From Ancylomarina subtilis (lineage in GTDB: Bacteria; Bacteroidota; Bacteroidia; Bacteroidales; Marinifilaceae): DNA of 64,000 bases. The translations under genes were made by a program, and so were the position numbers. The stretch is taken from assembly GCF_004217115.1 (NCBI RefSeq), contig NZ_SHKN01000001.1:1615781-1679780 (forward strand). The letters run 5' to 3'. A model generated the notes under the pieces. The model was given only the letters and a program-made list of their open reading frames with translations. It did not search any database and was not told the DNA's origin. The stretch's first letter is position 1. The number at the start of each line of letters is the position of its first letter. This document shows, piece by piece, positions 26,668-36,532 of this stretch.

Positions 26668-26788
26668 GACAACTTAATGAAGTGAAAACTGCAAATCCCA
26701 ACACAAACCACCATCCTATATTATCATATTAAATTTATGCTATTTTCAACAAAATACAAAGTCCCCTCATTTTAACGCAAACAAAAAA

Positions 26789-26815
26789 AACGCCTCCGGA
26801 AATTCCGAAGACGTT
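26789..26815 (-). terminator. Terminator of the hydrogenase operon
   Basis: An interrupted stem (AACG, CT and CGG pairing with CCG, AG and CGTT, with two mismatches) is followed by a T-run in the minus-strand direction. It lies 25 bp after the last hydrogenase subunit gene. Confidence 0.65.
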
Positions 26816-26839
26816 TAGTATAAGACAACAACTCAGTCT

Positions 26840-27319
26840 TTAATTTTGGTATTCTTTTAGAATATCTGCAACGTCACCAGCAGCAACACGTCCATATGTC
26901 CGTTCGCCAATTGTTACCACAGGAGCCAAACCACAAGCACCTACACAACGCAGACAAGAGATTGAAAACTTACCATCTTCAGTTGTCTCCCCGATAGGAA
27001 CCTTAAGTTGTTTTTTAAATTCTTCAAGAACCTTCTCTGCACCTCGTACATAACAAGCTGTACCCATACAGATTGAAATAGGAAATTCACCCTTAGGTAC
27101 CATCGTAAAGAATGAATAGAAAGTAACAACACCATATACGTGTGCAACTGAAACCTCAAGTTCACGAGCGATAACTTCCTGTACTTCAGCTGGAAGATAA
27201 CCAAAGGTCTCCTGAGCTTTATGAAGCACATTAATCAGCTCACTGCCTTCATTATTAAATGATTTGCAAATTTCGACAAGCTTCTCAACCTTGTCTTTTG
27301 CTAATTTTATTTTTGCCAT
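26840..27319 (-). CDS. hydC: NuoE-like [2Fe-2S] subunit of NAD(P)-linked [FeFe] hydrogenase (HydC/HndA)
   Basis: A 159-residue thioredoxin-like [2Fe-2S] protein homologous to the 24-kDa subunit of complex I. An N-terminal helical bundle contains NVLHKAQETFGYLP and HVYGVVTFYSFF. The four cluster ligands lie in CMGTACYVRG and CLRCVGACGLAP, and all four are present. It is the last gene of the operon, 90 bp after hydA. With HydA and HydB it would form the electron-input/output unit that exchanges electrons with NAD(P)H. It corresponds to HndA of the Desulfovibrio HndABCD enzyme and HydC of the Thermotoga-type bifurcating enzyme. Confidence 0.92.
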   Translation of the reverse strand: MAKIKLAKDKVEKLVEICKSFNNEGSELINVLHKAQETFGYLPAEVQEVIARELEVSVAHVYGVVTFYSFFTMVPKGEFPISICMGTACYVRGAEKVLEEFKKQLKVPIGETTEDGKFSISCLRCVGACGLAPVVTIGERTYGRVAAGDVADILKEYQN

Positions 27320-27409
27320 AATATTTATATTTAAGATATGAGATAATGGATATGAACCACATGTAATATTCTAATAAATCACATCCCGACTCTCAAATCT
27401 ACTGTAATA

Positions 27410-29182
27410 CTATTCAACCTCTATTTCATTTTGCTTGTCGAAGTAATGTGTGTGAAGCAACTTATGTGACAACTCGCCACAAGGCTTACCTAAGAATTCT
27501 TCGTACAATTTAATGATATATGGATTCTCATGAGATTTACGGATTGCTTTCCCCTCATCTTCGCGATAAAGAGCTGCAGCACGTTTCTTCAAAATAGACG
27601 AATCTCCATGATGCAACGGCTGACCGCCACCACCAATACATCCACCAGGACAAGCCATGATTTCAATTGCATGATATTCAGATTTACCATCACGAACCTC
27701 TTCAAGTAACTTACGAGCATTACCCAAACCGTGAGCAATACCTATGTTAAGTTCTAAGCCATCGAAATCGACTTTAGCACTACGAATACCTTCCATACCA
27801 CGAAGCGCTTCGAAATCGACTTTCTCAAGAGTTTTTCCTGTATAAACCTCATAAGCTGTACGAGCAGCAGCCTCGATCACACCTCCTGTAGCACCAAAAA
27901 TAACACTAGCACCAGTCGACTCACCCAAAGGATTATCAAAATCTTCCTCAGGTAAAGTTTTGAAATCCATATTGGCCTGCTTGATCAAATTAGCCAACTC
28001 TCGAGTTGAGATAGAATAATTCACATCAGGATCACCATCTACCTTAAATTCATCACGCTGACATTCGTATTTCTTAGCCAAACAAGGCATTATAGAAACC
28101 ACAATCATATCTTCACGCTTAATTCCCATCTGCTTAGCCAAATAGTTTTTAGCGATAGGACCAAACATTTGTTGTGGAGAACGTGCAGTAGAAGGAATCT
28201 CTTTCATCTCTGGGAAATGATGCTCAAAGAAATTCACCCACCCCGGACAACATGAAGTTAAGATAGGTAATTTCACATCCTTATCACCAGCCAAATGGGC
28301 ACTTAAACGACCTAATAGCTCAGTACCTTCCTCCATAATAGTCAGGTCGGCAGCAAAATCAGTATCGTAAACATTATCAAAACCCAGGTTACGAAGGGCT
28401 GAAACCATCTTACCAGTCACCAAAGTACCAGCTTCCATACCAAACTCTTCGCCTAGAGCAGCACGAACAGCAGGAGCCGTTTGTACAACTACAGTCTTCT
28501 TAGGATCAGCAAGATCTCTGATCAACTGGTTTGTGTGATCTTTTTCTGTAAGAGCTCCTGTAGGACATACAGCAACACACTGTCCACAATAGGTACAAGT
28601 CGATTTTTGAAGATCCATTTCAAAAGCCGGAGCAACGACTGACTCGAATCCACGATTTACAGCAGAAAGTGCACCTACAGTCTGTACATCATTACACATC
28701 GTTTCACAACGACGACACATGATACACTTATCCATATCGCGAATGATAGATGGCGAATAGTCAACTTTATATTTTGACTGCTCACCTTTATAGTGAATCT
28801 CACGAACACCTAAGTTCTGTGCAATAGTCTGCAAATCACAGTTTCCTGATTTCGCACACACTAAACAGTCGAATGGGTGATCAGAAAGCATCAACTCCAT
28901 TACAGTTTTACGAGCATTCAAAACTCTCATTGAATGAGTTTTGATATTCATTCCTGCTTCACATTTCGAATTACATGAAGGAGCTAAATTTCGTCTTCCT
29001 TCAACTTCGACAACACAAATACGACATCCACCTGGCTTATGCTCGATATTCATATCGTTAAGGTGCATGTAACAAAGTGTTGGTATATCGATACCAATCT
29101 CCTTTGCCGCTTGAAGAATAGTGGTGCCTTTAGCAACCTCTACTTCTTTATTATCAATGGTTAATTTTATCATTTGTTCCAT
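27410..29182 (-). CDS. hydA: Catalytic [FeFe] hydrogenase subunit (HydA/HndD)
   Basis: The 590-residue catalytic subunit, which reversibly reduces protons to H2. Domains in order: an N-terminal plant-type [2Fe-2S] domain (LCYMHLNDM, GGCRICVVEVEG); a His-Cys3 [4Fe-4S] site (HPFDCLVCAKSGNCDLQ); two [4Fe-4S] clusters (CIMCRRCETMC, CTYCGQCVAVCP); the H-cluster domain with L1 TSCCPGWVNFFE, L2 MPCLAKKYECQ and L3 MACPGGCIGGGGQP; and a small-subunit domain at the C-terminus (LYEEFLGKPCGELSHKLLHTHY). All H-cluster ligands and the proton-relay Cys of TSCCP are present, so it should be active. A strong Shine-Dalgarno (AAGGAGGA), overlapping the hydB stop, precedes the ATG. No hydE, hydF or hydG maturase genes are in the window. 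Confidence 0.96.
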   Translation of the reverse strand: MEQMIKLTIDNKEVEVAKGTTILQAAKEIGIDIPTLCYMHLNDMNIEHKPGGCRICVVEVEGRRNLAPSCNSKCEAGMNIKTHSMRVLNARKTVMELMLSDHPFDCLVCAKSGNCDLQTIAQNLGVREIHYKGEQSKYKVDYSPSIIRDMDKCIMCRRCETMCNDVQTVGALSAVNRGFESVVAPAFEMDLQKSTCTYCGQCVAVCPTGALTEKDHTNQLIRDLADPKKTVVVQTAPAVRAALGEEFGMEAGTLVTGKMVSALRNLGFDNVYDTDFAADLTIMEEGTELLGRLSAHLAGDKDVKLPILTSCCPGWVNFFEHHFPEMKEIPSTARSPQQMFGPIAKNYLAKQMGIKREDMIVVSIMPCLAKKYECQRDEFKVDGDPDVNYSISTRELANLIKQANMDFKTLPEEDFDNPLGESTGASVIFGATGGVIEAAARTAYEVYTGKTLEKVDFEALRGMEGIRSAKVDFDGLELNIGIAHGLGNARKLLEEVRDGKSEYHAIEIMACPGGCIGGGGQPLHHGDSSILKKRAAALYREDEGKAIRKSHENPYIIKLYEEFLGKPCGELSHKLLHTHYFDKQNEIEVE

Positions 29183-29194
29183 TTTTAATCCTCC

Positions 29195-30985
29195 TTATTG
29201 TATGCTAATGGCATTAAATTTACACTTATCCATACAAGCACCACACTTAATACATTTATCAACGTCGATAATATGAGCTTCCTTACGTTCACCAGAAATA
29301 CAATCAACCGGACAATTACGAGCACAAAGTGTACAACCCACACAAAGCTCAGGATCAACCACATATTGCATCAATGCTTTACACTGACCTGCAACACACT
29401 TATGATCTTCAACATGAGCCATATACTCATCATAGAAGTTCTCAATAGTAGACAATACCGGATTAGGCGACGTTTGACCTAAACCACATAGTGAAGTATC
29501 TTTAATTACAGCACTCAGATTACGTAATAAATCCAAATCCTCTTTAGTTCCCTTACCTTCTGTGATTTTATCTAACAGTTCATAAAGACGCTTATTACCT
29601 ACACGACAAGGCGTACATTTTCCACAAGACTCTTCAACAGTAAAATCAAGATAGAATTTTGCCATAGACACCATACAGTCGTCTTCATCCATCACAATCA
29701 TTCCGCCCGATCCCATCATCGAACCAACAGCAAGCAAGTTATCAAAGTCGATAGGTGTATCCAGATGTTTCTCTGTCAAACAACCTCCGGAAGGACCACC
29801 CGTCTGAACCGCTTTAAATTTCTTGCCATCCTTAATACCACCACCAATTTCGTAAATTACTTCGCGAAGTGTGGTACCCATTGGCACCTCGATCAAACCA
29901 ACATTGTTGATCTTACCAGCCAATGCAAACACTTTTGTACCTTTTGATTTATCGGTACCAATAGCGCTAAACCAGTCAGCACCTTTGTTGATAATAACAG
30001 GAACATTAGCAAATGTCTCAACATTATTTACGTTGGTTGGTTTGCCATTATAACCTGATTCTGCAGGGAATGGAGGCTTAACAGTTGGCTCACCACGAAG
30101 ACCTTCCATCGAGTGAATCAAAGCCGTTTCTTCACCACATACAAAAGCTCCGGCTCCATAACGCATTTCAACATCAAAATTGAAACCAGAACCTAAAATA
30201 TCTTTTCCTAATAAACCATACTCACGAGCTTGTCCGATTGCAACTTTCAAACGCTCAATCGCAAGTGGGTATTCGGCACGTATATAAATCACACCTTTAT
30301 CAGCACCCATTGTATAACCACAAATGGCCATTGCCTCAAGTACTGAATGTGGGTCTCCTTCTAATATAGAACGGTCCATAAATGCACCTGGGTCACCCTC
30401 ATCTGCATTACAAACCACATATTTTTGATCCGCTTCATTCTTAGATGCAAATTCCCACTTTAATCCTGTTGGGAACCCTCCTCCTCCTCGTCCGCGCAGA
30501 CCAGATTTCTTAATGATATCAATCACATCCTGTGGTGTCATTTCGAAACACTTACCTAATGCACCATATCCATCACGAGAAATATATTCCTCAATGTTCT
30601 CAGGATTGATAAATCCACAGTTTCTAAGAGCAATACGAATTTGTTTCTTATAGAAACCCATATTTTTCGCATCACTAACAGTTTCTTTCTTATCAGGATC
30701 GGTGTAAAGCAAACGCATTACCTGACGTCCTTTTACAATATGCTCTTCAACAATCTCAACAGCATCCTCAGGCTTCACCTCAATATAGAATGTGTTGTCC
30801 GGAAGAATCTTTACAATGGGTCCTTTTTCACAAAAACCAAAACAACCTGTTGTTACGACCTGCACTTCATCCTCAAGCCCCTTGGCTTTAAGTGCATCCT
30901 CTAAATTTGTTTGAATAAGCTCACTCTTAGATGCGCGACATCCTGTCCCTCCGCAAATAAGAATATGCATTTTATACTTTTCCAT
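29195..30985 (-). CDS. hydB: NuoF-like flavin subunit of NAD(P)-linked [FeFe] hydrogenase (HydB/HndC)
   Basis: A 596-residue diaphorase subunit that binds FMN and NAD(P). Domains: an N-terminal thioredoxin-like [2Fe-2S] domain (CGGTGCRASK, TTGCFGFCEKG); the NADH/FMN-binding core with GLRGRGGGGFPTGLKWEF and CNADEGDPGAFMDRS; an SLBB domain; the [4Fe-4S] motif SCGKCTPCRVG; and a C-terminal two-cluster ferredoxin (CVGCTLCARNCPVDC, CIKCGACMDKCK). This layout matches HydB of trimeric electron-bifurcating enzymes. I use the ATG at 30985, because the frame upstream begins only at a TTG that overlaps the previous gene. Whether it bifurcates (NADH plus reduced ferredoxin) or uses only NAD(P)H cannot be decided here. 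Confidence 0.94.
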   Translation of the reverse strand: MEKYKMHILICGGTGCRASKSELIQTNLEDALKAKGLEDEVQVVTTGCFGFCEKGPIVKILPDNTFYIEVKPEDAVEIVEEHIVKGRQVMRLLYTDPDKKETVSDAKNMGFYKKQIRIALRNCGFINPENIEEYISRDGYGALGKCFEMTPQDVIDIIKKSGLRGRGGGGFPTGLKWEFASKNEADQKYVVCNADEGDPGAFMDRSILEGDPHSVLEAMAICGYTMGADKGVIYIRAEYPLAIERLKVAIGQAREYGLLGKDILGSGFNFDVEMRYGAGAFVCGEETALIHSMEGLRGEPTVKPPFPAESGYNGKPTNVNNVETFANVPVIINKGADWFSAIGTDKSKGTKVFALAGKINNVGLIEVPMGTTLREVIYEIGGGIKDGKKFKAVQTGGPSGGCLTEKHLDTPIDFDNLLAVGSMMGSGGMIVMDEDDCMVSMAKFYLDFTVEESCGKCTPCRVGNKRLYELLDKITEGKGTKEDLDLLRNLSAVIKDTSLCGLGQTSPNPVLSTIENFYDEYMAHVEDHKCVAGQCKALMQYVVDPELCVGCTLCARNCPVDCISGERKEAHIIDVDKCIKCGACMDKCKFNAISIQ

Positions 30986-31004
30986 AATAGTGTTTGGGTT
31001 AGGT

Positions 31005-31397
31005 TTAGTCAATCGTATTATAGTTTACAGGAATAATTCCATCAACCAACTCACCATGCTTAACGTATTTCTCAATAATCTCATCGGCTTTTTTCACATC
31101 AACATCGCCAAAAACGATTGGGTCTTTACCCGGCATTTTGACTTCGATAGTTGGTTCTGCATAGCAATAGCCCATGCATCCGGTTTGGGTAACAACAGCT
31201 GCAATTCCTCTCTTTGCACTTTCTTCAATAAAGAAGTTCATTACCTCTTTTGCTCCGGAAGCGATACCACAAGTAGCCATACCTACTTTTATTTGTACCA
31301 TACTATCCGGGGCGTTACTCTTTTCTCTAAGATCCATTTTTGACTGAAGATCTTCTTTCATTCTCTTCAGATCTGCAAGAGATTTTACTTTTGCCAT
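31005..31397 (-). CDS. hndB: Thioredoxin-like (2Fe-2S) ferredoxin, HndB-like hydrogenase subunit
   Basis: A 130-residue protein with a predicted N-terminal helix (SLADLKRMKEDLQSKMDL) and a thioredoxin-like ferredoxin fold. Cysteines lie at residue 43 (GMATCGIASG) and at 74 and 78 (QTGCMGYC). The position of the first of the usual four ligands is Val38, so only three canonical Cys ligands are visible. It resembles HndB of the four-subunit NADP-reducing hydrogenase HndABCD of Desulfovibrio fructosivorans. It lies 19 bp ahead of hydB and 37 bp after the HATPase gene. It probably serves as an accessory electron-transfer or assembly subunit. Confidence 0.85.
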   Translation of the reverse strand: MAKVKSLADLKRMKEDLQSKMDLREKSNAPDSMVQIKVGMATCGIASGAKEVMNFFIEESAKRGIAAVVTQTGCMGYCYAEPTIEVKMPGKDPIVFGDVDVKKADEIIEKYVKHGELVDGIIPVNYNTID

Positions 31398-31434
31398 AAT
31401 CTCAAATATTAAAGGTTAATAACTAAAATTCTAT

Positions 31435-31974
31435 TTATATAATCGTCTTGATATTCTCATTTATCATTTCCTTAAGATAAACCAGAATATTGGGGTCATT
31501 TAAAGCAACCCCTTCCAAAACTTCTTTTACTTCTCTGGTATCAAACACATATTCTCCCTTTGGGGTCACATGTTTATATATAAAATCCATCTCTACGTTT
31601 GCGCCAACCAACAACATCATGGTTTCAGCAATATTCCCTAAAACAGGCCTGTCGATATTCGAATGAGAAAAGCTCACCTCGAGCCGGGTCCCTTTTCCCT
31701 CTTCTGACCAAATATCCAGCCCTCCTCCGGTTTGCTCAGCATTTTGTTTTAAAAGCGAAATACCCAAACCTACTTTTCTAGTTGTGCGAGAAGTAAAAAA
31801 TGGGTCACTAACATTTTCCAGAACCTCAGGCGACATACCACATCCATCATCAATGAATACCAGCTTATAAACGTCTTTTTTCACATCTTCAAATATCTCC
31901 AACTCAACAAGTTTTGCTTTTGCTCGTACTGAGTTCTGGATAATATCCATGATATGTTCTGACAAATCCCTCAC
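31435..31974 (-). CDS. Stand-alone HATPase (GHKL) protein, histidine-kinase-like, no DHp domain
   Basis: A 179-residue protein with a GHKL ATP-binding domain: N-box DIIQNSVRAKA (residues 10-20), G1 box IDDGCGMSPEVL, F-box DPFFTSRTT and G2 box KVGLGISLLKQNAEQTGGGL. There is no dimerisation/phosphoacceptor His domain and no membrane segment. The C-terminal 60 residues, after about residue 115, are not recognisable. It may act as an ATP-binding switch or kinase in the sensor module in front of the hydrogenase genes. The spacing (10 bp from the PHP gene) supports co-transcription. Its substrate is unknown. Confidence 0.82.
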   Translation of the reverse strand: MRDLSEHIMDIIQNSVRAKAKLVELEIFEDVKKDVYKLVFIDDGCGMSPEVLENVSDPFFTSRTTRKVGLGISLLKQNAEQTGGGLDIWSEEGKGTRLEVSFSHSNIDRPVLGNIAETMMLLVGANVEMDFIYKHVTPKGEYVFDTREVKEVLEGVALNDPNILVYLKEMINENIKTII

Positions 31975-31984
31975 TTCTTCTTAT

Positions 31985-32722
31985 TTATAAATCTACAAAT
32001 CGCCCACCTTCATTTCTCAAAGCCATTTTCACTTCCTCAAAGCTGGCTTCCATCATCTGAAATTTTGTACAGACTTCACCAACAAGATCGATACAATGAG
32101 CATCGGAGCTTTTTATAAATGTTTTATCTTTCAAATACGCATTCTTTTCCAGGAATGACGTTTTACTAATATGTTTGCTTATCTCAAGTGCATCCACATT
32201 CAGATCAAAAGGCACAAAGCCCAATTGTGAGATAATGCTATTTTGTGCTTTATTTATATGCGCTGGTATAAACAAACCTGACAACTCATGTACTTTTTGT
32301 TCTACCTGATCAATACTTTGGTCTATAGCTGAAATTAACAACCACTCAATCTCATCAATAATTTCATCAGCCTCATTAACCACAACCTGATAACCAAACC
32401 GATCATTATCATTCGGAATATGGGGCAAGTGTGCTTCAAGATAGGATTGAAAAACCGTCAATTTTTCTTCAGTTTCAAAAAAGCAAAGACAATGTACCTC
32501 CTCTTTTGTTGTCACCTCAGCTCCCATCACGACCATTAAACCCTCCCTGGCTGCCATCTTTTTAATTAAGGGAGCATGAAGAGTTGTGTTATGATCGCTT
32601 ATGCCTAAAATATCAATGCCTCGCTCTCCGGCCTTTTTCACAATATTTACCGGACTCATCTCCAAATCTCCACAGGGAGAAAGTACGGTATGTGTGTGTA
32701 AATCGACTCGAAAGGTTCGCAT
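31985..32722 (-). CDS. PHP-domain metal-dependent phosphoesterase-like protein
   Basis: A 245-residue protein of the PHP superfamily. Metal-binding motifs are DLHTHTVLSPCG near the N-terminus, ISDHNTTLHAP (about residue 40), GAEVTTKEEVHCL, PAHINK and the terminal SSDAH. These proteins hydrolyse phosphoesters such as short nucleotides, nucleoside bisphosphates or histidinol phosphate, but this one cannot be assigned a substrate. The ATG at 32722 is preferred over an in-frame GTG that overlaps the previous stop codon. It is embedded in the hydrogenase sensor module, which suggests turnover of a signalling or redox-linked nucleotide. That is inference. Confidence 0.85.
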   Translation of the reverse strand: MRTFRVDLHTHTVLSPCGDLEMSPVNIVKKAGERGIDILGISDHNTTLHAPLIKKMAAREGLMVVMGAEVTTKEEVHCLCFFETEEKLTVFQSYLEAHLPHIPNDNDRFGYQVVVNEADEIIDEIEWLLISAIDQSIDQVEQKVHELSGLFIPAHINKAQNSIISQLGFVPFDLNVDALEISKHISKTSFLEKNAYLKDKTFIKSSDAHCIDLVGEVCTKFQMMEASFEEVKMALRNEGGRFVDL

Positions 32723-32727
32723 AATCA

Positions 32728-33063
32728 CTAGTCACTTATTAATTTGTAAAGTTTTCCGGTCAACTCAAAAGCTTCTTCTTCTGATGACAAAATTGGAATC
32801 CCTTCAAGATTACTTTGTTCTGCCGCATCAGCCTCTGGCTCATAACCTTTAACCAAAACAACAGCAGCCAATTCCTTTAGCGAAGCGATGGCCATTATAT
32901 TCTTATGAGTTTGTAAGGTAATCCAAACCTGATCAGCATCAGCATTTCCCATAACATCGCTCAATAAATCAGAAGTATATCCACCCTCAATTTCTTTATC
33001 AAGACCTTGTTCTCCAGAACATACTTTTAAGCCTAAGGCAATTACAATATCACTTACTTTCAT
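32728..33063 (-). CDS. DRTGG-domain protein, copy 2
   Basis: A 111-residue protein resembling stand-alone DRTGG-domain proteins. The domain also occurs in HprK-type kinases and phosphotransacetylases, and its function is not established. It has the start VSDIVIALGLKV, the core GGYTSDLLSDVMG, DQVWITLQTHKNIMAIASL and the end EEAFELTGKLYKLI. It is distantly paralogous to the 115-residue protein that opens this operon (34858-35205). The gene lies between the hydrogenase-like sensor (7-bp gap) and the PHP gene. Confidence 0.78.
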   Translation of the reverse strand: MKVSDIVIALGLKVCSGEQGLDKEIEGGYTSDLLSDVMGNADADQVWITLQTHKNIMAIASLKELAAVVLVKGYEPEADAAEQSNLEGIPILSSEEEAFELTGKLYKLISD

Positions 33064-33070
33064 ATTTTTA

Positions 33071-34429
33071 TTAGCTGTTAAATTTCTTTTTTTCGAAACG
33101 ACCTTTCCCCCACGTTTCCTCTGATATGTCGAATGATTCCTGAGGACTAATCAGTTCTTCTTTCGTTAACATCTTTTGCAAGAAAACACATTGGGTCATC
33201 TTAGCACGTCCCTGAACAATATCCTCTGCAAGCACTTTACACTTAGGAGCTCCACATGCGCCACAGTCAATCTCTGGCAAAACACGCATGATTCGTTGGA
33301 TCTTTTTCATTTTATCCATGGCGATCATCATATCCGCATCCAAACTTAAAATTGATCTGGGCTCAATTTCCGATATAGCCATATTATTCAGTAAGTAGGG
33401 GCGATAAGTCGAATACATCTCTTCCGTTTCAGCCTGTTTTTTTATCTCTTTCTGAGCACGTTTACTTAAACGCTCTACGGCTAAGAATCTGTTTTCGGTA
33501 CTCAAAACACCACCAGCACAACTTCTATCACAGGCTCTAAGCTCAAGAAAATCAACATCTGTAATCTCGTCATTCTCTAACTTGTCCAGAAAGGCGATCA
33601 CATTATGAATCTCATCTATAGCCAAACAACGTCCTGAATACTGAGAAGCCTCCCCATTGGTTAGGGTCCAGTCTATACTGGTTTTAGATAAATGACGGTA
33701 ATTGGACACAGTCTGTTTTTCCTGACTGGCATGTTTAATACTAAGCATGACTTTATTATAGATAAAATCCATATTAATCACACCATCTATCAACATCTCA
33801 TCCTCACCTACAGGTGATTTCACAGAGGCAATTTTAGCAGCGCAAGGTGTTACATAAAAAATTCCAATCTCCTCACTCTTATAACCTTCATCTATTAATT
33901 TTTTACGATAAAATTGTGATGAGATATCAACAACAGGTTTTAGCCTGACAATATTTTCAACCAGGGATGGGAAACGGACTTGTATTAGACGCACAACAGC
34001 AGGACAAAAACTAGAGATAAATGGGCGCATTTGAGAATGCTTGCGCATATACTCCTTGGTGCCCTCTATTAATAAATCAACCGCTTCATCCACTTCAAAC
34101 ACATGGGTAAAACCCATTTCGCGGATAACATCATAAATCTGTTCTTCGGTAATATCATCGGGAAATTGACCTAATAAAACTGTAGGTAAGATAGCCACTC
34201 GTTGCTTGTAGCTGAATATCTGATTAAAATCGTCTTGCTCAACGATTATTGCGTTAACCGGACAGGCCTTTAAACACTCGCCACAATCAACACAAGCATG
34301 CTTATTTATATCAGCAGTTCCTGATTTCACACGAATTGCCTTTGTAGGACATACATTCATACAATGTGTACAGCCAATACAAACGTTTTCGACAACTTTA
34401 AGTGCGTGATAAAAAGGAAGCTTTTCCAT
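33071..34429 (-). CDS. Divergent [FeFe]-hydrogenase-like Fe-S protein, putative redox/H2 sensor (HydS-like)
   Basis: A 452-residue multi-cluster protein. Two ferredoxin-type [4Fe-4S] motifs lie at Cys17-20-23-27 and Cys46-49-52-56. A shortened hydrogenase large-subunit domain follows (residues 75-320). The four H-cluster ligand positions are kept: C142 in SSFCPAV, C196 in VTPCAAK, and C300 and C304 in RACDRSCAGG. The Cys that relays protons in catalytic enzymes (TSCCP) is Phe141, and the GGGQP end of L3 is missing. A C-terminal 4Fe-4S domain has Cys389, 392, 397 and 414 (CGACGAPKC). Sensory [FeFe]-like proteins have such features, although here there is no PAS domain. Spacing is 5 bp to the RsbW-like gene and 7 bp to the DRTGG gene. 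Confidence 0.85.
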   Translation of the reverse strand: MEKLPFYHALKVVENVCIGCTHCMNVCPTKAIRVKSGTADINKHACVDCGECLKACPVNAIIVEQDDFNQIFSYKQRVAILPTVLLGQFPDDITEEQIYDVIREMGFTHVFEVDEAVDLLIEGTKEYMRKHSQMRPFISSFCPAVVRLIQVRFPSLVENIVRLKPVVDISSQFYRKKLIDEGYKSEEIGIFYVTPCAAKIASVKSPVGEDEMLIDGVINMDFIYNKVMLSIKHASQEKQTVSNYRHLSKTSIDWTLTNGEASQYSGRCLAIDEIHNVIAFLDKLENDEITDVDFLELRACDRSCAGGVLSTENRFLAVERLSKRAQKEIKKQAETEEMYSTYRPYLLNNMAISEIEPRSILSLDADMMIAMDKMKKIQRIMRVLPEIDCGACGAPKCKVLAEDIVQGRAKMTQCVFLQKMLTKEELISPQESFDISEETWGKGRFEKKKFNS

Positions 34430-34434
34430 GTGTA

Positions 34435-34848
34435 CTAATTTAAATAGTTAATTAGTTCAACTTCGGTTCCAACACCAACCTCGGATTTTATATTGAGCTC
34501 ATTGGTATTTTTCTTTATATTAGGAAGGCCCATACCTGCTCCAAATCCCATTTCACGAACTGCTGGAGAGGCGGTAGAATAGCCTTTTTGCATAGCCAAA
34601 TCGATATCAGGGATACCAGGTCCCTTATCGACAATTCGCACCACAATTTTTTCAGGAAAAATAGAAACATTCATTTCTCCCTCGTAAGCATGAGCAACAA
34701 CGTTCACCTCAGCTTCATAAATCGAAACAACAATTCGCTTGATCAGCTTTGGGTCAACATTCAATTTTTTCAGAACTTTCTTTACATCACTTGAAGCTGT
34801 ACCTGCCTTCGAAAAATTGCCTCCTTCTATATCAAATTTAAAATCCAT
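34435..34848 (-). CDS. Anti-sigma-factor-like serine kinase (RsbW/SpoIIAB type HATPase)
   Basis: A 137-residue GHKL ATPase resembling anti-sigma factors of the RsbW family. It shows the N-box SIYEAEVNVVAHAYEG (about residues 43-58), G1 VDKGPGIPD and G2 REMGFGAGMGLPNIKK. Such proteins phosphorylate an antagonist or bind a sigma factor. No anti-anti-sigma (STAS) or sigma-factor gene is visible nearby, so its partner is unknown; the DRTGG proteins are candidates by proximity. It is the second gene of the operon, 9 bp after the first DRTGG gene. Confidence 0.85.
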   Translation of the reverse strand: MDFKFDIEGGNFSKAGTASSDVKKVLKKLNVDPKLIKRIVVSIYEAEVNVVAHAYEGEMNVSIFPEKIVVRIVDKGPGIPDIDLAMQKGYSTASPAVREMGFGAGMGLPNIKKNTNELNIKSEVGVGTEVELINYLN

Positions 34849-34857
34849 AAGTCAGAA

Positions 34858-35205
34858 TTAATAAACCGGCTCTAAACCCATCTTACACAATAACGAACAC
34901 GCTCGAAACATAGAATAACCACATTCAATAAGAGTTATCCCACTTTCTTCAGCTAAACGCTTCATTTCTTCTGAAGCTTTTTTATCACGAACAAATAATA
35001 TGTACGGAATATCAGACATCTCAGATGTTCTAATTGTCTGCAAATTATTCAAACCTGTAACAAGCAAGAGATTATCTGAATCAATCGTCAAAACATCACT
35101 CATCAGGTCCGAAGCAAAACCAAAATTTATATCCTGATTTAAATCTGTATTACCACAAACAAGCTTGGCATTCAATTCATCTAATATCTGAGATACTTTC
35201 ACCAT
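34858..35205 (-). CDS. DRTGG-domain protein, copy 1
   Basis: A 115-residue DRTGG-like protein that opens the ten-gene hydrogenase operon. It shares with copy 2 the pattern KVSQILDELNAKLVCG, FGFASDLMSDVL, a hydrophobic strand (NLLLVTGLNNLQTI) and a C-terminal helix (YSMFRACSLLCKMG). It carries four scattered Cys (residues 17, 95, 103 and 108) but no recognisable cluster motif. No function can be assigned. Its position beside an RsbW-like kinase suggests a regulatory or phospho-acceptor role. Confidence 0.75.
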   Translation of the reverse strand: MVKVSQILDELNAKLVCGNTDLNQDINFGFASDLMSDVLTIDSDNLLLVTGLNNLQTIRTSEMSDIPYILFVRDKKASEEMKRLAEESGITLIECGYSMFRACSLLCKMGLEPVY

Positions 35206-35725
35206 TCCAAACTGATAATTTATGTTTAATTAAAGCTACGAACAATGATGCTAAGATAAGAAATAGAGTAAGATATCTTAACGCTAAGGGGGGGAATAGA
35301 ACGAAAAACAGAAAATACATATTTAGTCTAAATAACTATGCTTCACAGCAGCTTTTATTGAGAACGAATTTGGAAAACTCCTGTAAATTAGACATTAGTA
35401 AAATTCATTTTTTTCAGAACGATAATACGTGCTAAAAAACACAAGGAAGACCTCATTTTTACTGAATTATTTATTTTCTTAGACATCAATTCAAATTGAC
35501 ATAAACTGAACTAAAACTGAATCAAAATTGTAAGACTTTACAAAATTGAATTGCCCTTTCAGTAATTTGAATTATTTTATCAAAATAATCCATAAAATAC
35601 ATTTAAGGATCAATTATGAAGTCAAAGATTCACTCAACACACTTGTTTTATTTCATTAAGTTAATAATTTGGCCTCTCAAAGCCATTTGAACTCGAATTA
35701 ATTTAACTCTTTTTTTCTCTAATTC
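35206..35725. other. Divergent intergenic region upstream of the hydrogenase operon
   Basis: A 520-bp gene-free stretch between the hydrogenase operon (minus) and the UspA-like gene (plus). I find no good TAnnTTTG/TTTG pair for either direction. Visible features are a 12-bp perfect palindrome TAAGATATCTTA at 35269-35280 and a run of seven G at 35288-35294, both 65-90 bp upstream of the first hydrogenase-operon gene. Confidence 0.55.
35269..35280. promoter_or_regulatory. 12-bp palindrome, possible operator of the hydrogenase operon
   Basis: TAAGATATCTTA is a perfect dyad about 65 bp upstream of the first gene of the hydrogenase operon. In AT-rich DNA such a palindrome can occur by chance, so this is only a candidate regulator site. 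Confidence 0.25.
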
Positions 35726-36532
35726 ATGTACAAGAAAAACCAACATATATTAATAATCATTCAAAATCTGAATCCGAATAAAAGCAGCTTACACCATGCT
35801 GTGGCACTCACAAAAATTTTCAAAGCCAAAATTCTGGTAACACCTTCTCCTTTTTCGAAAAATAAAATACAGCAAACTGAAATAGAAGATTACATCTCGG
35901 ATACTCCCGAAGCCCGATTTCTCAAAATCGACCAATCAGATCTTGAACCAAACAAATGCATAGAAAAACTTAATATCATTTTCATGCTTGTACAAGTTGA
36001 TCAAAAAAATGATTTCAAATTTTTCCTCAAAAACAACATCTTTAATTGGGTTCTGACAGCAAAGATTCCCACCATCCTTATCGGAGATAAAACATCAAAC
36101 AAAGCTGATTATTCAAACATTCAAATTCCAATTGATCACAAAAAAGAATCAAAAGAAAAGATGATTTGGGCTAGCTATTTCGGACGATTTAATAAAGCGA
36201 TCATTCATCTTATTCCGGCTAAGGAAAAAGATAGCACCTACATGAAAACCATTAGAAATACACTCCTATTCACAAAAAAAATGTTTACCCAGTTTAATTT
36301 CGATTATAAAATAACAAAGTCGGAAGTTGCTAGCAAACAAATCGATGAAGAAGCATTTTCAAATCCAGCAACTAAAGCATCAGACCTTGTCATTTTGATG
36401 ACAGGAAAAGTGCAGGGAGTCTTCTTTCTAAGATTCAATTCGAAAAAAATAAAACACTTTACAAACACATACCCTAACCCAATTCTACTTATCAATCCTT
36501 TAAAAGATTATTATTTACCCTGCGAAGGTTAA
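35726..36532 (+). CDS. Degenerate UspA-like protein
   Basis: A 268-residue soluble protein with what looks like a two-domain universal-stress-protein (UspA) layout: HILIIIQNLNPNKSSLHHAVAL at the start, a first domain ending near IPTILIGD, and a second ending in the strand PILLIN. The ATP-binding motif of UspA proteins (G-2x-G-9x-G-S/T) is only partly present around LMTGKVQGVFFLRFNSKK, so nucleotide binding is doubtful. It is followed by a glycerophosphodiesterase, an exchanger and an hpf gene on the same strand, a context compatible with stress or starvation. The assignment is moderate. Confidence 0.6.
   Translation: MYKKNQHILIIIQNLNPNKSSLHHAVALTKIFKAKILVTPSPFSKNKIQQTEIEDYISDTPEARFLKIDQSDLEPNKCIEKLNIIFMLVQVDQKNDFKFFLKNNIFNWVLTAKIPTILIGDKTSNKADYSNIQIPIDHKKESKEKMIWASYFGRFNKAIIHLIPAKEKDSTYMKTIRNTLLFTKKMFTQFNFDYKITKSEVASKQIDEEAFSNPATKASDLVILMTGKVQGVFFLRFNSKKIKHFTNTYPNPILLINPLKDYYLPCEG

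Follow-up and report, generated by a model that had tools for sequence, protein, structure and literature searches.

A putative phospho-signalling cassette around a sensory-type [FeFe] hydrogenase accompanies NAD-linked redox enzymes in Ancylomarina subtilis and distant bacteria

Group D (M2e) sensory [FeFe] hydrogenases first received a detailed characterisation in 2020 (PMC8163306), and the proximity of these HydS proteins to bifurcating hydrogenases and kinases has been published (PMC3561251, PMC8163306). As of 2026 the interaction partners of HydS were still to be identified, and finding them was called critical (PMC13104023). Here we examined a 64,000-nucleotide stretch of the Ancylomarina subtilis genome (GCF_004217115.1, contig NZ_SHKN01000001.1, positions 1,615,781 to 1,679,780; hereafter the window), in which ten minus-strand open reading frames (ORFs) at 26840-35205, separated by small gaps, form an operon. 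In transcription order they encode D1 (DRTGG), K1 (GHKL), HydS, D2 (DRTGG), PHP, K2 (GHKL), Fd (HndB-like), HydB, HydA and HydC, the first six of which we refer to as the cassette. An original prediction had proposed this ten-gene operon with a sensory-type [FeFe] protein as its third product, and both proposals are borne out, the H-cluster site of that protein being intact; its statement that similar genes occur near clostridial [FeFe] hydrogenases was also right, as PMC3561251 lists M2e genes that adjoin bifurcating hydrogenases and have kinases in the vicinity. No published description of the full DRTGG/PHP cassette was found in the literature searched, and subscription literature outside that search may hold one. 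What appears to be new is the cassette as a whole, with its DRTGG, PHP and two GHKL proteins around HydS, the location of HydS near a bifurcating hydrogenase and a kinase being already known.

By its sequence, the third product belongs to the sensory [FeFe] hydrogenases of group D (M2e), since its features are those given for the group in PMC8163306, namely the lack of a PAS domain, replacement of C299 and M353 (the latter by Ser or Thr) and a C-terminal Cx2Cx4Cx16C motif. Two N-terminal [4Fe-4S] motifs contribute eight cysteines (C17, C20, C23, C27, C46, C49, C52 and C56), the four H-cluster cysteines are present (C142, C196, C300 and C304), the C-terminus bears Cx2Cx4Cx16C by sequence, and no PAS domain was found among the Pfam matches. 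With residue correspondence to CpI numbering made by motif, a phenylalanine (F141) occupies the C299 position and a threonine (T194) the M353 position, and the lysine matching K358 (K199) is kept.

The closest described system is TamHydS of Thermoanaerobacter mathranii, which shares this domain plan, the lack of PAS, the C299/M353 replacements and the C-terminal motif, and likewise lies upstream of a trimeric bifurcating hydrogenase with a histidine-kinase-like ATPase adjoining (PMC8163306, PMC13104023). The TamHydS neighbours named in those sources are the ATPase and an AraC regulator, with no DRTGG or PHP partners among them, whereas the locus described here comprises a whole cassette, has no AraC gene in its operon and belongs to a system with [NiFe] and molybdopterin (Mo) versions. 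The M2e loci of Carere et al. 2012 (for instance Cthe_0335 with Cthe_0340-0342) also combine a sensory with a bifurcating hydrogenase and a nearby kinase, and Cthe_0339, called a histidine kinase, stands at the place expected for K2 (PMC3561251, PMC3990059). The relevant passages of these sources only mention the kinase and hold no DRTGG or PHP genes; from the gene count, we infer that Cthe_0336-0337 are D2 and PHP. A sensory-type [FeFe] protein linked to hydrogenase genes is likewise found in the group C (M2f) HydS of Thermotoga maritima and in HfsB/HydS, the Hfs type being also linked to a phospho-signalling protein, a serine phosphatase, but these systems have PAS or a SpoIIE-type phosphatase where the cassette has DRTGG, K1 and PHP (PMC10055695, PMC11837493). 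The window genome itself also encodes, far from the operon (L067, C1:892000-907000), two sensory hydrogenases that we assign to the group C type, one of them with a sub-cut-off PAS match and each adjoining a SpoIIE phosphatase gene above the Pfam cut-off.

A homologue search gave matches below 1e-100 in 36 of 58 genomes, the window genome included, and neighbourhoods were taken for 20 of the other 35. All ten genes were present in the window's order in 14 of the 20 (with HydA split over two ORFs in L050), four neighbourhoods ended at contig ends (L051, L052, L054 and L056), one showed D1 to PHP only (L048) and one comprised the six cassette genes without the enzyme (L055). The six-gene set also stands alone, with no Fd or HydABC within 10 kb, on a plasmid-labelled record of Parabacteroides distasonis (L062) that is probably chromosomal because gyrA is on it as well; in a tree of 46 chosen HydS rows, the P. 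distasonis protein falls among rows of the window's order. A mixed HydS alignment scanned over genome contigs of 84,980 species yielded at least 592 confirmed stretches, of which the best 80 were, by title, nearly all from Clostridia or other Bacillota, with one labelled Planctomycetia.

A total of 120 HydS loci were compared, comprising 27 from Bacteroidales, 82 from Clostridia (with L063 and L064), seven of an Hdr type and four of a Mo type. All 117 testable loci, the other three being cut by contig ends, have D1 and K1 upstream of HydS and in its orientation; excluding eight loci that had been fetched via a D1 match (six Bacteroidales, two Mo) leaves this linkage at 109/109. The gap between K1 and HydS is at most 200 bp in 109 of the 117 loci and 233-2898 bp in eight Clostridia loci. 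Downstream of HydS, D2 occurs in 18/23 Bacteroidales, 68/70 Clostridia, 4/5 Hdr-type and 0/4 Mo-type loci, and PHP in 18/23, 69/70, 5/5 and 0/4, respectively; among loci with wide flanks, K2 is present in 15/17, 41/45, 5/5 and 0/4, and HydB in 13/17, 41/45, 5/5 and 4/4. The five Bacteroidales loci without a downstream D2 either have D2-PHP-K2 upstream (L287, L288) or belong to genomes with D2 elsewhere (L281, L289, L292). The regulatory genes are thus conserved beside hydrogenases in Clostridia and other Bacteroidota, so that the original prediction is not refuted by a lack of conserved linkage, the outcome it had named as speaking against it, and the GHKL and DRTGG proteins, which the original prediction had regarded as partners, are regular companions of HydS. 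One of the Clostridia-type loci (L064, MT835800.1), with a whole cassette and HydC-K2-Fd-HydB-HydA, was deposited as 'Bacteriophage sp.' from human faeces and is probably a mislabelled bacterial contig.

The cassette is associated with NAD-linked redox enzymes rather than with the [FeFe] active site, to which it had initially been tied, since other lineages pair it with an Hdr/[NiFe] hydrogenase or a molybdopterin enzyme. A HydS search in the class of genome G229 gave a match at 1e-40 in nine of 149 genomes, and Hdr-type genes flank the cassette upstream in G229, G237, G356, G387, G404, G420 and G439. In L065, L066, L161, L162 and L165, the genes after HydC-Fd-HydB encode a NuoG-N/HdrA-type protein lacking an H-domain and then a [NiFe] hydrogenase, HdrA likeness having been tested for L065, PF02906 absence for L065 and L066, and the other loci being placed by resemblance. 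The [NiFe] large subunit exceeds the PF00374 cut-off in all five loci, and MvhD-type genes occur in four, the two scanned both passing PF02662; in L065 an antisense ORF was picked at the MvhD-type position. The contigs of G356 and G387 end before the [NiFe] genes, and a second G356 contig (L167) carries PHP-K2-HydC-Fd-HydB and the start of the NuoG-N/HdrA-type protein. The Mo version, found in G353 and G388 from the same search and in G494 and G569 from the window's order, has HydC, a HydB of 626-630 amino acids and a NuoG-N/molybdopterin protein that exceeds the PF00384 cut-off in 4/4 loci and whose domain plan leads us to guess at a formate dehydrogenase; D2 lies upstream in all four. In the HydS tree, the [NiFe]-linked (97/88) and Mo-linked (100/99) proteins each form one clade, and the two are sisters (100/98).

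Instead of the single hydrogenase-plus-sensor unit originally envisaged, the operon consists of three separable units, D1-K1-HydS, D2-PHP-K2 and the enzyme (3+3+4 genes). D1-type matches occur in 94 of 295 genomes of the window's order, and 19 stretches from 16 D1-positive genomes were inspected, picked for an unusual match pattern, so that the split cases do not represent frequencies. D1-K1-HydS and D2-PHP-K2 lie at separate genome places in G572 and G606; in G640 the former is on one contig and D2-K2 close to the end of another; in G034 a single contig carries both D1-K1-HydS and, ~25 kb away, a PHP-D2-K2 set; and in G556 D2-PHP-K2 accompanies Fd-HydB-HydA-HydC with D1 on a different contig. 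Among Clostridia the usual companion unit is HydC-K2-Fd-HydB-HydA, co-directional or divergent, with HydC apart and upstream of D1 in a few loci. The best evidence that D1 and K1 may work together is their fusion in G353, G388, G494 and G569 into a single ORF of 265-279 amino acids with DRTGG and HATPase domains (DRTGG above cut-off in one of the four).

Gene content, order, conservation, the D1-K1 fusion, the 3+3+4 separability and the enzyme replacement are all observed, and in light of them we consider it probable (roughly 0.6) that HydS, two DRTGG-GHKL arms and PHP constitute an H2- or redox-controlled phospho-signalling cassette serving NAD-linked redox enzymes. The H-cluster and Fe-S clusters of HydS would sense H2, or a redox state that H2 and ferredoxin determine, and the state of HydS would control the adjacent SpoIIAB-like kinase K1, which would act on or together with D1. 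A second arm of the same logic, D2 and the GHKL ATPase K2 with PHP as reversing enzyme, would relay the signal, and the output would set the amount or activity of the NAD-linked enzyme, giving a path from HydS through K1-D1 and D2-PHP-K2 to the enzyme by reversible phosphorylation. K1 keeps its GHKL motifs across 105 rows. D1 has a modelled DRTGG fold. Its SDxMSDVL stretch hardly varies over 105 rows (D33 and D37 occur in every row, S36 in 99%) and falls within the part modelled with the lowest confidence (residues 31-40, mean predicted local distance difference test score, pLDDT, 54); it may be at S36 in this poorly modelled loop that K1 phosphorylates D1. S35 of D2 is invariant in 99 rows, and the D1 and D2 profiles each match the other's members. 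Searched against ten Clostridia genomes, the D1 profile matched nothing beyond the DRTGG proteins of the cassette itself, except in four of them, where it also matched a protein of 550-564 amino acids that is probably a DRTGG pyrophosphatase. PHP, which could reverse the phosphorylation of D1, has ten invariant residues in 96 rows (D9, H11, H13, D45, H46, E71, H79, H157, D209 and H211) that we take to be metal ligands. The predicted K2 structure is confident (pLDDT 90.8), with clear structural matches for the GHKL part only. The cassette's output may act on the enzyme itself or on its expression. No transcription factor gene occurs in the window operon, as had been noted at the outset.

Several observations weigh against this interpretation. 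Two genomes (G458, G570; L276, L277) have D1-K1-D2-PHP-K2 without HydS between K1 and D2, and the rest of the cassette may therefore work without HydS, which was not searched for elsewhere in these genomes; HydS is present in the cassette of G663 (L278), from the same genus. Only D2-K2 was found in G504 and G695. Neither PHP nor K2 occurs in the clusters of the four Mo-linked loci, so PHP is not essential to every version. K1, at 56.7 bits, is far under the SpoIIAB cut-off of 135, and the C-terminal cluster of HydS is described as not being reduced by H2 (PMC13104023). Furthermore, inspection by eye of the 40 largest neighbour clusters from 105 loci revealed no cross-lineage conservation of a transcription factor, STAS or sigma gene; antisense artefacts ranked top, and serC-, serA-, ABC- and response-regulator-like clusters reached 9-10 loci. 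As no widely conserved regulator was seen among the neighbours, the output may either control the enzyme directly or act in trans.

The sensing step proposed in the original prediction, through an H-cluster, appears to fare differently between lineages. The window genome has HydE, HydF and HydG, and its HydS probably senses H2 through a complete H-cluster; in the Hdr/[NiFe]- and Mo-linked lineages such sensing is doubtful, because the maturases were not found there. None of HydE, HydF and HydG passed in nine module genomes of other classes, that is, genomes related to the window genome at phylum level only, the controls being imperfect, and in five of the nine HydS is the sole PF02906 protein. 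This absence is an indication and no proof, given that control genomes with a canonical HydA were also negative (G036 for all three maturases, G441 for HydG and HydE, the two tested there) and that four of the nine (G237, G404, G353, G388) have a strong PF02906 match besides HydS. The controls also include G445, with HydE present and no HydG above the cut-off. All seven Hdr-type HydS keep the four H-cluster cysteines, and C20, in the first ferredoxin motif, is missing from five. Among the Mo-clade proteins C300 (C499) is a histidine in two and K199 (K358) a leucine in a third, the fourth (L280) keeping both. HydS is the sole PF02906 protein of G034, which has HydE, HydF and HydG; this genome was dropped as a decisive case of HydS without hydA, as its HydS contig ends ~1 kb after HydS and hydA may lie beyond. 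The group C phosphatase was dropped as a general partner of K1, since G034 and five of the nine genomes have no PF02906 protein other than HydS.

A broader formulation, which we hold tentatively and at rather less than even odds, is that the cassette is a general phospho-signalling system that senses electron pressure and controls NAD-linked [FeFe], [NiFe] or Mo enzymes. H2 sensing by an H-cluster would be one version of it, and without HydEFG HydS would be an Fe-S redox sensor lacking a catalytic diiron site.

Close to the small phospho-metabolite first suggested, a small phosphorylated nucleotide might be the messenger, bound by the DRTGG proteins, destroyed by PHP and answered by the GHKL proteins. 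The invariant ligand-type residues of PHP, the 3',5'-nucleoside bisphosphate phosphatase among its sub-cut-off NCBIfam matches and the DRTGG part of a regulated pyrophosphatase among the fold relatives of D1 would all suit such a scheme, but the cassette holds no synthase and the Mo-linked version has no PHP nearby, and we consider it unlikely, if the best placed of the remaining alternatives.

Somewhat less probable again is a role of the cassette in assembly or quality control of the NADH module (HydB/HydC), in which the GHKL proteins would be chaperone-like ATPases and no signalling would occur. HydB and HydC are indeed the enzyme subunits that the [FeFe], [NiFe] and Mo versions share, and in many Clostridia loci the K2 gene is flanked by those for HydC and Fd. 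The cassette nevertheless occurs, whole or in part, without a nearby HydB in 4/17 Bacteroidales-type and 4/45 Clostridia wide-flank loci (L062 among them), and the SpoIIAB-like character of K1 and the sensory-type active-site changes of HydS also argue against it.

K1 could instead be the anti-sigma factor of a partner switch, with D1 and D2 in the role of the STAS antagonist, controlling transcription from elsewhere. K1 resembles the SpoIIAB/RsbW partner-switching kinases in GHKL fold and motifs, SpoIIAB is its best NCBIfam match and the operon has no regulator of its own. K1 falls under every RsbW/SpoIIAB cut-off, however (28.4 bits against 145 and 25.2 against 155.05 for the RsbW models), the fold of its apparent partner D1 is DRTGG, and no sigma or STAS gene lies in the window operon or was seen by eye among the 40 largest neighbour clusters, which together make this reading improbable. 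Finally, it is very improbable that HydS serves as a slow catalytic hydrogenase among genes that are unrelated passengers: H2 turnover in vitro has been shown for a group D enzyme (PMC8163306), but the 117/117 linkage, the D1-K1 fusion, the co-splitting and the replacement of the C299 and M353 positions all speak against it.

The features of the operon are collected in Table 1. The window hydrogenase is NAD-linked and probably bifurcating, with a HydA above a curated cut-off that, together with NuoF-type HydB and NuoE-type HydC, places HydABC in the NADH-dependent group A6. The [2Fe-2S] fold of the HndB-like type usually has four cysteines; the HndB-like protein is one short, with only C43, C74 and C78 conserved (in 84-85 of 85 rows). 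A second HydC-HydB-HydA set occurs in the window genome (L069, C1:1133000-1149000), with no K2, Fd or cassette in that stretch. Between D1 and a divergent ORF at 35726 lies a 520-bp region, and the TTTAG-N-CTAAA repeat within it falls inside a conserved block of a 9-row upstream alignment; the pattern is expected 0.13 times in the window and was found twice. The longer pattern GTTATTTAGNCTAAATA was found in 12 of 295 loci; these overlap one another and come from six closely related genomes. Another TTTAGNCTAAA is at 339-349 of the window.

Table 1 Features of the HydS operon and its flanks in the window
Feature	Position	Strand	Evidence
D1, DRTGG-fold protein, 115 aa, first gene	34858..35205	-	
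K1, SpoIIAB/RsbW-like GHKL kinase, 137 aa	34435..34848	-	HATPase_c_2 44.3 bits; spIIAB 56.7 bits, under equivalog cut-off 135
HydS, group D (M2e) sensory-type [FeFe] hydrogenase, 452 aa	33071..34429	-	Cys motifs, no PAS
D2, second DRTGG-type protein, 111 aa	32728..33063	-	Pfam DRTGG 22.2 bits, under cut-off
PHP-domain phosphoesterase, 247 aa	31985..32728	-	PF02811 34.1 bits, cut-off 26.4
K2, stand-alone GHKL ATPase, 179 aa, C-terminal part ~75 residues	31435..31974	-	PF02518 54.8 bits, residues 4-102
Fd, HndB-like thioredoxin-fold protein, three conserved Cys, 130 aa	31005..31397	-	Weak ferredoxin-type matches
HydB, NADH/FMN-binding subunit	29195..30985	-	PF01512 158 bits
HydA, catalytic [FeFe] hydrogenase, group A6	27410..29182	-	NF040763 906.7 bits, cut-off 765
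HydC, NuoE-like [2Fe-2S] subunit	26840..27319	-	PF01257 165 bits
Terminator-like hairpin directly after hydC	26788..26816	-	13 pairs then T run; pattern scan only
TTTAG-N-CTAAA inverted repeat upstream of D1, candidate operator	35322..35332	.	Conserved upstream block

Distant bacteria have the same signalling set next to enzymes of very different kinds, which points to candidate partners for HydS. Based on gene order, natural fusion and co-splitting, we nominate D1 and K1 as direct partners of HydS, and D2-PHP-K2 as a second arm. The [NiFe] and Mo versions are natural variants in which H2 sensing may be separated from redox sensing.

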